Below the pieces are notes generated by a model that saw nothing but the letters and a program-made list of their open reading frames with translations, was not told the origin of the DNA and did no database searches. DNA of 64,000 nucleotides from Balneolaceae bacterium (GTDB taxonomy: Bacteria; Bacteroidota; Rhodothermia; Balneolales; Balneolaceae), in contig CP030887.1 in the NCBI GenBank assembly GCA_006969905.1, positions 124,001-188,000 on the forward strand. Direction: 5' to 3'. Shown in pieces: positions 26,457-30,052 of the stretch (positions are counted from its first letter, which is position 1; each line of letters opens with the position of its first letter). A program made the position numbers and the translations under genes.

Positions 26457-27038
26457 AGTGTATTTCTGATTTTTTGAACAGGAGTAATAACGTTCTTTTG
26501 GTTGAAAAGTTCAGGGTTTGATTTATTCGCACTGGAAGAGACTGAATCAGGTCAGACTAGGTCATCCCGGACTTGATCCGGGATCTTTAGAGAGTGATAC
26601 TTTGATCAAGTTCTTTTCCTGAACAGCGCTCTTATCCCCACAGATGCTGAATCAAGTTCAGCATGACAACAACCTAAATGTAATTAATGGTCCGCTCGTT
26701 CCGAACCTCCGGTTTGGAATGCCTATCGGAGGCTCCCGCTTCCTTGCGTCCCTTTGAAGCAGAGCTTCAGGAGAGCATCACGCAGCGGAGCTACGTGATG
26801 AGATTAATTTATTCGCACAATCGGATACTGAATTATATTCAGCACAGGCAGCTTGCGCTAGTTGGGGAGCTCAAAAGTTCAGGGTTTGGTTTATTCGCGT
26901 AAGTGGATGCTTGAAATAGGTATAACAAAATGGTTCGTCTCGTTTTAAATGAGAAATATTAGACAAATTTAATTATTAACTATCAGTTAATAATCGCATA
27001 TTCAAATAGTTCTTTGAATTAGTGTGATAACTTTTGGA
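26457..27038. other. Repeat-rich gap before the retron
   Basis: No gene was recognised here. The gap holds a 26-base direct repeat (26505-26530 and 26873-26898, one mismatch, AAAAGTTCAGGGTTTG then TTTATTCGC), two family A palindromes (26561-26585 and 26643-26667), a hairpin CATCACG/CGTGATG (26776-26782 with 26794-26800), and a 38-base repeat shared with 24893-24930. The last 100 bases before 27039 are AT-rich and probably carry the retron promoter. Confidence 0.6.
26505..26898. repeat. Direct repeat pair bracketing about 340 bases
   Basis: The two copies (26505-26530 and 26873-26898) match at 25 of 26 positions. They enclose the palindromic repeats but not the retron, so they do not by themselves mark an insertion of the retron. 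Confidence 0.7.
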
Positions 27039-27294
27039 TTTAATCAAATAAACTAGGCTGAAAACAATGAAGCCAATTAAGTTTGGCAGCGATAGTATCG
27101 CCGATACTAATTGTGCATGGGAGTGTTCACCTATTAATTAGAGTAACACTTACCCTCACTGCTTAATTGCTTTGATCACAATTAGCCTATGCACTTCTAA
27201 AGTATTCTTGATTGTAATAATTAAGGATTAGGGGGGCAGGTGAAATTGAGGGATCGTAGTAACACCCGTCGTACAGTAGTTTATTTGGTTTAAA
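27039..27294 (+). ncRNA. Candidate retron msr-msd RNA
   Basis: TTTAATCAAATAAACTA at 27039-27055 is complementary to TAGTTTATTTGGTTTAAA at 27277-27294: 11 continuous pairs, one G-U, one bulged base and 5 more pairs. This is what an a1/a2 stem should look like. Next to the left arm are two short hairpins fit for msr, GCCAA/TTGGC (27072-27087) and TAGTAT/ATACTA (27093-27109). The rest can fold as one nested msd hairpin: 27120-27127 with 27261-27267, 27153-27158 with 27247-27252, 27162-27168 with 27219-27225, and 27178-27182 with 27211-27215. Alternative pairings exist (GTGCATGGG with CCTATGCAC; TTCACCT with AGGTGAA). The branching guanosine is not identified. The retron RT 630 bases downstream makes this reading likely. 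Confidence 0.75.
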
Positions 27295-27327
27295 AGGGCA
27301 GGCATGCATAAGCATGTTTTAACCTTA
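27288..27327 (+). other. Hairpin between the retron RNA and its first gene
   Basis: GGTTTAAAA ... CATGC-ATAA-GCATG ... TTTTAACC can form a stem-loop with a perfect 5-bp tip and an 8-bp base. It overlaps the a2 arm and lies just before the ATG at 27340. It may attenuate transcription into the protein genes or mark the RNA 3' end. Confidence 0.45.
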
Positions 27328-27339
27328 AACTAAATTATT

Positions 27340-27576
27340 ATGAAAATAATAAAGGAAGTCCGAGAGGCCAGGAAGTGTGCACGCATTCTTCTTGAATCAC
27401 ACCGGGAGTTACTCTCGGGTAATGAAATCGAAGCACTTGAAAATGCGGAACGCGCGTTTTCTGATTTATCAGATAGCATTGATAGTGAAACCCGTAAGTC
27501 TTCAATGAAATCTTTAGCAGTAGATGTGCTTGCACTCGTAGCTAAAGTAGGAATTAAAGTCTTTACGGAGGAATAA
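27340..27576 (+). CDS. Small helical protein of the retron locus, unknown
   Basis: A 78-residue protein with no family I recognise. It is predicted to be all-helical and charged at first (VREARKCARILLESHRELLSGNEIEALENAERAFSDL), ending in a hydrophobic amphipathic stretch (SLAVDVLALVAKVGIKVF, about 58-75). It lies 45 bases after the candidate msr-msd RNA and 61 bases before the HTH gene, all in one direction. Position suggests a retron accessory or effector, or a partner of the HTH protein. Only one cysteine (C13) and no enzyme motif are visible. Coding status rests on length, position and helix-like composition. Confidence 0.65.
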   Translation: MKIIKEVREARKCARILLESHRELLSGNEIEALENAERAFSDLSDSIDSETRKSSMKSLAVDVLALVAKVGIKVFTEE

Positions 27577-27637: not shown

Positions 27638-27946
27638 ATGAAATTTGGAAATACTTTGAAGCAGCTACGCAAAAAAAAAGGCATCAATCAAGAATTGCTT
27701 GCAAAGCGTATTGGCATAACTCAAACCTATCTCTCTCTTCTTGAGTCTGAACAAAAAACTCCGAGTATTAAACTACTTAACTCTTTATCTAAAGAATTAG
27801 ATGTACCAGCTTCAATATTAGGTTACCTCTCATTAAATAAAGAAAAGATAAGTACTAATAAAATTCACTCTTTTGAGAAGTTAAATCCATTGATTGAAAG
27901 CTTAATTAAACAACTCATTTTAGATGAAGAAAATCCTAAATCTTGA
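27638..27946 (+). CDS. XRE/Cro-CI-type HTH protein of the retron locus
   Basis: A 102-residue protein with a textbook XRE helix-turn-helix at residues 4-60 (LKQLRKKKGINQELLAKRIGITQTYLSLLESEQKTPSIKLL), then a short helical tail. Its last 23 bases overlap the RT gene in the +1 frame, so the two are translationally coupled. HTH proteins are one of the known partner classes of retrons (the HTH-associated type, type VI in one published scheme, from memory). It could be a repressor of the locus, an antitoxin or the effector adaptor. Confidence 0.9.
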   Translation: MKFGNTLKQLRKKKGINQELLAKRIGITQTYLSLLESEQKTPSIKLLNSLSKELDVPASILGYLSLNKEKISTNKIHSFEKLNPLIESLIKQLILDEENPKS

Positions 27947-28808
27947 ACAAAATCTAATCTATAAAGATTCTCGTCTAAGCTTCGATTTCACTCAAAGTAT
28001 TGATAGGTTTTGCTACAAAATAGGAGTTCCAAAAAATCTAATAGAGAAAATTACTAACGATATTGAAGATTATTACAAAGAATGGAAATTTGCTAAAGAG
28101 CATAAAGACGGATCAAAAAAAGTAAAAAATGGAGTTGTACAGTATAGAGTTATAAACCCAAGTAAAAAAGACCTTAAATGGATACAAAAGAGAATTTGTG
28201 ATAGAATTCTTTCAAAGTTTCAATACCCCATTAATATACAAGGTGGGTTGAAAAAGAGAGACAATATTCAAAACGCTAAAATGCATCTAGGTAAGAAATT
28301 TCACTTAGTAACAGACCTTTCTAATTTTTTCCCTACCATAACACATAAAGCCGTTTATAATCGCTTACTTGAAATTGGTTTTTCTCCTGATGTGAGTAGA
28401 ATTATAACTTTACTATGCACTTATAATTATAAGATTCCTCAAGGCATAAGCCCTAGCACTTATCTTGCGAATCTCGTTTTTTACCCAATAGACCTATTAC
28501 TTATTGAAATCTGTAATAGATTAGATTTATTTTATACCCGCTTTGTAGATGATATTGCTATTTCAGGAAACTACGACTTCCATTTGAGAACTAATGAAAT
28601 ATTGAATGTTATTCATGATAGTAATTACAAAATTAATCACGCTAAAACATTTTACAGAGTAGGTAAAACAGAAATTACGGGAATTCTTGTTTCTAATAAT
28701 GTTTTAAACCCTAAAGATTCAATAGATCAAAGAATTAATGATCCTAATACGAATGAAAACTCTAGAAATTCATTAAAAGTCTACCGAAAAAGAATAAAGG
28801 ATATTTAG
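27924..28808 (+). CDS. Retron reverse transcriptase
   Basis: A 294-residue RT, close to the usual 300-330 of retron RTs. The retron hallmark NAxxH is present in region X (N117-A-K-M-H121) and the (I/V)TG motif in region Y (I251-T-G253). RT motifs follow in order: TDLSNFFPTIT with D131, QGISPST with Q173, and the catalytic box FVDD at 207-210 inside TRFVDDIAISG, where Phe replaces the usual Tyr. No maturase, Cas1 or CRISPR neighbour is present, which argues against group II intron or CRISPR RTs. Sequence is more AT-rich than the flanking genes, consistent with horizontal acquisition. It should make msDNA from the upstream RNA; most retrons studied act in phage defence. Confidence 0.93.
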   Translation: MKKILNLEQNLIYKDSRLSFDFTQSIDRFCYKIGVPKNLIEKITNDIEDYYKEWKFAKEHKDGSKKVKNGVVQYRVINPSKKDLKWIQKRICDRILSKFQYPINIQGGLKKRDNIQNAKMHLGKKFHLVTDLSNFFPTITHKAVYNRLLEIGFSPDVSRIITLLCTYNYKIPQGISPSTYLANLVFYPIDLLLIEICNRLDLFYTRFVDDIAISGNYDFHLRTNEILNVIHDSNYKINHAKTFYRVGKTEITGILVSNNVLNPKDSIDQRINDPNTNENSRNSLKVYRKRIKDI

Positions 28809-28966: not shown

Positions 28967-29050
28967 GTCTTCCTGAGGCTACTGCCGAAGGATCTGCACA
29001 ATTATTCAGACTTGCAGATTCTTCTCCCGATTCCTCGGGATCAGAATGAC
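28967..29050. repeat. Palindromic intergenic element, family B
   Basis: The element runs from GTCTTCCTGA to TCAGAATGAC (complementary ends with one mismatch) and has an inner pair GATCTGCA/TTGCAGATT. It is closely similar to 25625-25721. It lies immediately before the exonuclease gene and is open in that gene's frame, which falsely lengthens the open reading frame upstream. Confidence 0.75.
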
Positions 29051-29062
29051 TGCACAGAAAAA

Positions 29063-30052
29063 ATGCTCAAAGTCGTTAAAGCCGGATATCATGGAATTTT
29101 GCTTCCCGAAGTGGGAATAGGGTTAGACTATTCGGGAAGCAAAGCTGAGTATATTTTTATCTCGCATGCTCATGCCGATCATGTTCCTAAAAATCGCAAG
29201 CTAAGCGTGTATGCCACGCCACCTACGGCCAGCTTTATGAAACTGCGGGGATTTGGCGGTGAAGTGAAACCGCTGGAGTTCGGCCAAACGCTTAAGACTG
29301 ACAAAGCCCGCATTACTTTCTACCCCGCCGGGCATATTCTTGGCTCAGCCATGACTTTTGTGGAATCAGAATTCGGGAATTTGTTGTATACCGGCGATTA
29401 CCGGACACCTCCTTCTCCTGCCACCGAGGGTTTTGAACTCCCCGATGCAAAGATCGATACGTTTATAACTGAAGCCACATTCAGTCTGCCTATTTATAAA
29501 TGGAAAACAGAGGAAGAGCTAGCTCAGCAAATCCGGACTTTTGCATCTCAAAACCTGGAAGAAGGATTCACTCCGGTTTTCACGGCTTATAATCTGGGCA
29601 AGGCTCAGGAACTCATGTTTATTCTGAAGGAGCTGAATCACCCTATGCAGATACATGGCGCCGGATTTAAACTCTGCAAGGTGTACGAGGAACATGGCTT
29701 TCCCTTGGGAGACTACGAAACCTACAACCGCGACACCTGCGAGGGCAAGATTTTAATTACCCCGAGCTCGGCGTTGGGAACCGGCTTCGCATCTAACGTA
29801 AAAAAGAAACGCGTTGCATATTGTTCGGGTTGGGCTGCCAATGAGTCGCGGCAAACGCAGCTTACGGTAGATGAACTGATTCCCATCTCCGACCATCTCG
29901 ATTTTTTCGAGCTAATTGACTTGTGCCAGAGACTGAATCCGAAAAAAGTGCTCATCACGCATACTCCCAATCCTAAAGTGGTACAGCATTATCTGGATGA
30001 GTTGGGGATTAATTCCGGGTTTTTAGATTTGGAGGCGGTTGACAATGAATAA
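29063..30052 (+). CDS. Metallo-beta-lactamase-fold exonuclease, DNA-ligase-associated
   Basis: A 329-residue protein of the beta-CASP-like MBL nuclease group found beside ATP-dependent ligases (TIGR04122-type). The zinc site is ISHAHADHVP (H35, H37, D39, H40), followed by AGHILGS, a phosphate-type LYTGDYRTPP and the late SDHLDFFEL. I start at the ATG at 29063; the frame is open back to 28955 but that part is a family B repeat and does not resemble the family. The ligase gene follows after two repeat elements. The pair is thought to process and seal DNA ends, independent of Ku/LigD. Confidence 0.88.
   Translation: MLKVVKAGYHGILLPEVGIGLDYSGSKAEYIFISHAHADHVPKNRKLSVYATPPTASFMKLRGFGGEVKPLEFGQTLKTDKARITFYPAGHILGSAMTFVESEFGNLLYTGDYRTPPSPATEGFELPDAKIDTFITEATFSLPIYKWKTEEELAQQIRTFASQNLEEGFTPVFTAYNLGKAQELMFILKELNHPMQIHGAGFKLCKVYEEHGFPLGDYETYNRDTCEGKILITPSSALGTGFASNVKKKRVAYCSGWAANESRQTQLTVDELIPISDHLDFFELIDLCQRLNPKKVLITHTPNPKVVQHYLDELGINSGFLDLEAVDNE

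Follow-up and report, generated by a model that had tools for sequence, protein, structure and literature searches.

Judging from sequence, positions 27039-27294 of the window (the whole 64,000-nucleotide stretch of DNA analysed here) encode the RNA that serves a type VI retron as its template. Retrons are reverse-transcriptase elements of a kind known in anti-phage defence, and type VI is reportedly a retron class of Mestre et al. 2020. Taken by itself, the RNA adds one more member to a class already known. The surprise is the conserved boxA leader that precedes it, which sets the class apart as a distinct variant. boxA is a short signal that bacteria use in making ribosomal RNA. This leader, common to nearly all relatives, has apparently not been described before: a literature search outside of which Mestre 2020 lay gave no description of a type VI ncRNA or of a boxA leader, and one for boxA in combination with retrons gave nothing relevant (Mestre 2020, the 2024 retron census and supplements lay outside it). 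We consider it quite probable that we are dealing with the operon of a type VI retron, in which a boxA-led msr-msd RNA is made with the assistance of Nus factors, the HTH protein acts as a regulator and the small protein acts as an effector. The features on which the argument draws are as follows (+ denotes the forward strand).

26972-26994, no strand: candidate operator, a perfect palindrome ATTATTAACT-ATC-AGTTAATAAT with 10-bp arms and a 3-nt spacer
27009-27017, +: boxA, an element of the rRNA antitermination type, GTTCTTTGA, 21 nt before a1 and just outside the coordinates of the earlier note
27039-27055, +: a1, left arm of the long-range stem, TTTAATCAAATAAACTA, partner of 27277-27294
27056-27057, +: GG directly after a1, candidate priming guanosine by position only
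27072-27087, +: msr hairpin 1, GCCAA-UUAAGU-UUGGC, with the conserved loop AUUNAGUU
27089-27101, +: msr hairpin 2, GCGAU-AGU-AUCGC
27167-27262, +: long imperfect hairpin of minimum-energy helices with probabilities of 0.64-0.92, apex stem 27204-27214/27218-27228
27267-27273, +: CGTCGTA just 5' of a2, kept as CGnCGnA in close relatives
27277-27294, +: a2, right arm of the long-range stem, pairing with a1
27340-27576, +: small auxiliary protein of 78 aa, probable effector by position and conservation
27638-27946, +: HTH (Xre-type) protein; PADLOC HTH_VI E 2.5e-23, best of 18 families; HTH_3 E 5.5e-14
27924-28808, +: retron RT, type VI, 294 aa; RT_VI E 2.7e-64, next best family 2.1e-47

The assignment to type VI comes from the genes. 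The earlier note had placed a retron RT downstream of the RNA, and the profiles specify it as type VI; it also matches RVT_1 (E 6.5e-15). Its motifs are intact, namely N117-A118-H121 (NAxxH), FVDD at 207-210 with the catalytic DD, and ITG at 251-253 (xTG). The RNA does not lie exactly upstream of the RT, as had been thought: two small genes (27340-27576 and 27638-27946) separate them, and the order is ncRNA, 78-aa small protein, HTH protein, RT. Both of these genes and the candidate operator are absent from the earlier note. With RT_VI and HTH_VI as the best profiles and a small auxiliary protein, the locus has the composition with which a type VI retron has been described, that is, an RT, a DNA-binding protein and a small auxiliary protein (PMC8541194). 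Genomes, genome contigs and viral contigs provided 54 distinct type VI loci. A single-sequence RT scan of the genome contigs found nothing, and an alignment-based scan succeeded. Generic HTH similarity made the HTH_VI family search match nearly every genome, and its top matches alone are type VI.

The element has a GC content of ~30%, compared with 42-48% in the flanking regions. The RT is absent from all seven other genomes of the genus that were searched; six of these keep the downstream gene, and homology begins only at ~28,967-29,063 of the window. The GC contrast, the absence from these genomes and the homology edge fit a horizontal acquisition. Imperfect direct repeats AAAAGTTCAGGGTTTGATTTATTCGC and shorter copies, located upstream of the retron at 26505-26530, 26808-26829 and 26873-26898, are possibly remnants of a mobile element.

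GTTCTTTGA is the most widely shared 9-mer in the upstream regions of type VI retrons. Of 51 type VI loci, 49 have the exact sequence ahead of the small gene, where shuffles lead one to expect 0.18. The distance between boxA and a1, 21 nt in the window, is ~8-26 nt in clear cases. One locus (L003) has GTTCTCTGA at the boxA position. The element is also present in plasmid copies from Bacteroides uniformis and Aureispira (L194 and L195). Taken together, these comparisons are strong evidence that boxA is conserved across type VI retrons. Two Riemerella loci, L061 and L193, have no boxA upstream. Both keep the type VI genes; in L061 (Riemerella columbipharyngis) other sequence fills the upstream region, and in L193 (a plasmid of R. 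anatipestifer) an IS4351 element is located close upstream of the small gene. There is no boxA in two phage type VI-like loci (L192, and L191 upstream of its genes) or in 17 other retron or RT loci of the same phylum (L149-L154 and L156-L166). Four loci (L002, L087, L138 and L139) have a type VI RT, a boxA-like element and the retron RNA, and no HTH gene was detected in them; boxA is present in the first three and L139 has GTTCTTTGC. Distant HTH-bearing relatives from Nitrospirae, Levybacteria, Phycisphaerae and Chlamydiia have GGTCTTTGA, GATCTTTGA, GCTCTTTGA and GTTCTTTGA at a matching distance, a boxA-like pattern that can be written as [GA]NTCTTTGA; other distant loci have no boxA-like element. 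An occurrence of GCTCTTTGA in Shewanella phage MuM16-1 was rejected as boxA, being inside the HTH gene.

The classical places of boxA are the 16S leader and the 16S-23S spacer. In the rRNA operon of the host, GTTCTCTGA occurs 119 nt before 16S and GTTCTTTGA occurs in the 16S-23S spacer, and the boxA of the retron is identical to this spacer boxA of the same genome. In other hosts, L169, L174 and L176 have exact copies in the 16S leader and/or the spacer. The rRNA loci of other hosts have variants such as GTTCATTGA or GATCTTTGA, and some flanks have none within the available sequence, so that identity between retron and rRNA is not proved in every host. In many homologues boxA is preceded, at a distance of ~8-17 nt, by the motif TAnnTTTG, which we take to be the Bacteroidota -7 promoter consensus; the window has only a weak and unclear form of it. 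In the homologues boxA stands between this promoter-like motif and a1, and by the distance from the motif the transcript would begin almost directly with boxA.

That location allows a different suggestion. With a real msr-msd RNA, GTTCTTTGA may still only resemble boxA and instead belong to the promoter as an initial-transcribed element, or be the site at which the RT or the HTH protein binds. Apart from its proximity to the presumed start site, the exact 9-mer is kept more strictly than rRNA boxA usually is, and some host rRNA spacers have GTTCATTGA or GATCTTTGA instead. We regard this suggestion as rather unlikely. Many homologues have a separate promoter motif, TAnnTTTG, further upstream; GTTCTTTGA matches the boxA in the rRNA spacer of its own genome letter for letter, lies outside the RNA closed by a1/a2, persists in loci without the HTH gene and is absent from the other retron types of the phylum that were sampled. 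Our preferred reading is that the element is a boxA in function as well as in sequence.

A second shared sequence lies upstream of boxA. Sites resembling TTAACTnnCAGTTAAT, ~33-43 nt before boxA, score at least 10/14 in 30 of the 49 HTH-bearing loci; in the four HTH-less loci the score is 8-9/14 and the promoters lack the palindrome. The mean score is 9.8 against 8.5 for shuffled sequences (of 14), a modest enrichment, and among shared 9-mers TTATTAACT ranks second to boxA (21 of 51 loci). The HTH protein of the operon probably binds the palindrome at 26972-26994, which makes it a candidate for autoregulation; as the enrichment is modest, autoregulation is reasonable to infer rather than a result.

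A small protein of similar size is encoded in the same place in nearly all of the 54 type VI loci, and 44 sequences make up its alignment. It has no match in Pfam or PADLOC. A three-helix model is predicted (pLDDT 70); this model has no match in PDB, and a fold search returned generic helical bundles only. From its position and conservation, and by analogy with the effectors of other retrons, this small helical protein is likely to be a toxic effector. Three loci (L017, L018 and L021) contain a small protein that aligns with the type VI ones together with an HTH_VI protein, without an RT, the retron RNA or boxA; in them the small protein is preceded by an unrelated protein of 222-224 aa that has no confident Pfam match. 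These loci suggest a toxin-antitoxin-like core that retron parts later joined or from which they were lost.

One might also suppose that the RNA chiefly serves a toxin-antitoxin operon, formed by the small protein and the HTH protein, as its regulatory leader (attenuator), with msDNA synthesis being secondary or lost. The occurrence of the pair without RT or retron RNA in L017, L018 and L021 would agree with such a role, as would the candidate HTH operator in the promoter. But the RT is intact, with its catalytic DD and NAxxH/ITG motifs, the RNA is kept in relatives that have the RT and lack the HTH gene, and the msr hairpins and the motif before a2 are conserved. We find an attenuator very unlikely and continue to treat the RNA as the template of the RT.

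Its framework is the long-range stem. The earlier note had paired 27039-27055 with 27277-27294 over 17 bp with one G-U and one bulge; both arms are found at these coordinates, and a recount gives the same 17 pairs, one G-U and one bulge. The core is a perfect 11-bp match between 27045-27055 (CAAATAAACTA) and 27277-27287 (TAGTTTATTTG), beyond which come one U-G, two A-U, a bulged T (27041) and three U-A. An unbiased repeat finder returned the same arm pair (as I3). The minimum-energy fold of 27030-27330, which had been recommended as a check, closes on the a1/a2 stem (MFE -86.3, z -4.0; 0 of 100 shuffles equally stable), with pair probabilities of 0.97-1.0 for 27044-27053. Among 1000 dinucleotide shuffles ~0.5% match the best stem in the same positional range (p ~0.005), and when the a2 region alone is shuffled 1.7% reach an equal stem (p ~0.017). 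The earlier opinion that a chance match is unlikely stands at p ~0.005-0.017, but the odds are not overwhelming, the sequence being AT-rich. Since the stem judged alone is only moderately unlikely, it is the homologues that decide its reality.

In ~50 type VI retrons there is an equivalent stem or two-hairpin RNA in the same place and with a different sequence. Examples of stems of different sequence at the same position relative to the small gene are those of L010, L039, L043, L052-L054, L059, L062, L063, L069 and L078. In L139, a locus from the same family as the host, a1 is CAAGCGTTATC and a2 is GATAGCGCTTG, with no sequence relation to the arms of the window. The lack of compensatory changes in homologues had been put forward as an argument that could be turned against the RNA; such changes are found both in the a1/a2 stems and in the msr hairpin. 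A pure stem-score search yielded 16 of 50 loci at p <= 0.05, a low number because the search fails where the arms are bulged. It was replaced by a test in which the inner a1/a2 ends of 20 loci were anchored by conserved flanks and not by pairing. Cognate arms form 8.0 of 10 Watson-Crick pairs versus 6.3 for arms swapped between loci; the permutation p ~5e-5 is the minimum possible with 20,000 shuffles, and close relatives are among the 20 loci, their shared ancestry being uncorrected. When 11 sequences (the window and ten homologues) were folded singly, all of them closed on their own a1/a2.

The two short hairpins that had been expected inside the left arm are borne out at 27072-27087 and 27089-27101. 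In 13 sequences hairpin 1 has 100% of its cells paired, with double-sided changes in three of its five pairs; its covariation is 0.672 against 0.249 for shuffled alignments, and none of 500 shuffles reaches the score. An equivalent of hairpin 2 follows hairpin 1 in almost all loci, and the single-sequence minimum-energy fold of the window favours an alternative pairing at 27089-27101. A covariance model of homologous upstream regions, the other check that had been proposed, was built from 16 relatives with the window excluded (model R1); it spans boxA to hairpin 2 and not the full length of the RNA. Its top site, in the window (E 2e-5) as in the genome, is 27009-27101 at 37.8 bits, a score partly due to the boxA included in the model. 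The next genome site scores 23.9 bits, and the next two genome matches are in coding sequence; nothing above 19.4 bits was found in 41 control loci. Rfam at the gathering threshold has no match within the window.

That AT-rich DNA produced the a1/a2 stem by chance as an inverted repeat, as its moderate significance when taken alone (p ~0.005-0.017) might allow, is extremely improbable and already contradicted by covariation: the relatives have equivalent stems of other sequence in the same place, cognate pairing reaches p ~5e-5, the 11 folded sequences all close on a1/a2, and an independent covariance model matches the adjoining msr. By these comparisons, the a1/a2 pairing of 27039-27294 is confirmed and the RNA is real.

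Four nested inner pairings had been offered as a possible msd. In the fold they appear as one long imperfect hairpin at 27167-27262. It is the probable core of the msd according to the folding; covariation gave no confirmation of this hairpin. In relatives, the position after a1 is G or A. The motif before a2 reads CGACGTA in L139, CGACGAA in L039 and CGACGGA in L013 in the alignment, and the other large group of relatives has GAACATTGTTTAC at this position. Both motifs (27267-27273 and GAACATTGTTTAC) are candidates for the msd 3' end, where reverse transcription would start. A 14-nt near-repeat, CTATGCACTT(C/A)TAA, occurs in the msd region (27187-27200) and in the RT gene (28413-28426) with 13 of 14 positions identical, possibly by chance.

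The arrangement resembles Retron-Eco1 (Ec86), which likewise has an a1/a2 stem, a G after a1 (in Eco1 the priming G), small msr stem-loops, a larger msd stem and the RT downstream (PMC11754653). It differs in having CUAGGC and no UAGC after a1, AUUNAGUU and not UUU as the msr loop, and two genes between the RNA and the RT.

What might boxA do in front of such an RNA? In E. coli rRNA, boxA binds NusB/S10 and stays attached to the polymerase, and it has been proposed that the leader arm is thereby kept close to the exit channel for as long as the trailer arm has yet to emerge (PMC10250234). In Enterobacteriaceae, boxC lies within the leader strand of the rRNA helix, 18-19 nt after boxA, and activity is lowered when 6-12 nt are added between the two (PMC10250234). 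In reporter contexts boxA blocks Rho termination on untranslated RNA (PMC4807359). In the rRNA leader, boxA is followed after ~20 nt by the left arm of a helix whose distant strands enclose a long untranslated RNA (PMC10250234); here the enclosed RNA is a stable 260-nt template for reverse transcription and not rRNA. Since the geometry of type VI retrons (boxA, ~8-26 nt, left arm, long untranslated RNA, right arm) is the same, we think that boxA may protect the transcript and aid the closing of a1/a2. Reuse of the Nus complex outside rRNA is known: boxA is found at suhB and at a ParE-like toxin gene of Citrobacter koseri (PMC5725501), and it precedes CRISPR arrays, a defence-related non-coding RNA (PMC7862264). 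Unlike in those cases, boxA is tied here to one retron type and has a fixed place before a1.

Proceeding from the gene content, the a1/a2 and msr structure, the conservation of boxA and its identity to the host rRNA boxA, we can outline how the operon may work; Nus recruitment, tethering, operator function, msDNA and the role of the effector are what we infer. The promoter would overlap the palindrome that the HTH protein probably binds, and transcription would start immediately ahead of boxA (27009). The first ~330 nt would be untranslated and would fold into the msr-msd RNA, with its a1/a2 stem, two msr hairpins and long msd hairpin. At the 5' end, boxA would recruit NusB, S10 and other rRNA antitermination factors, and Rho would thereby be kept from stopping the polymerase in the untranslated stretch. 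Because boxA would stay tethered to the polymerase, a1 would be held nearby until a2 emerges ~220 nt later, in line with the proposal for the leader-trailer helix of 16S rRNA. The RT would then prime on the G after a1 and copy the msd into branched msDNA. RT, msDNA and the HTH protein together may restrain or regulate the small helical protein, which phage interference with the complex would set in action.

The present comparison places the template RNA of type VI retrons and supports it by covariation, which opens the type to msDNA assays and engineering. Constructs that start at a1, without the boxA leader, may be poorly transcribed or misfolded, which would explain simply how such retrons might appear inactive. 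Use of the Nus complex would tie the retron to the transcription machinery of rRNA, in parallel to boxA at CRISPR arrays. We lean, with some reserve, towards the general view that in all type VI retrons an obligatory boxA, ~10-25 nt before a1, brings in the rRNA antitermination/chaperone complex for the making and folding of the template RNA, and that this coupling to host Nus factors makes interference with NusB, S10 or boxA a possible signal for freeing the effector. Phages hijack host Nus factors, and lambda-like phages depend on them. Should the retron use the Nus complex, the need of lambda-like phages for the same factors would give a testable idea of what type VI retrons sense.
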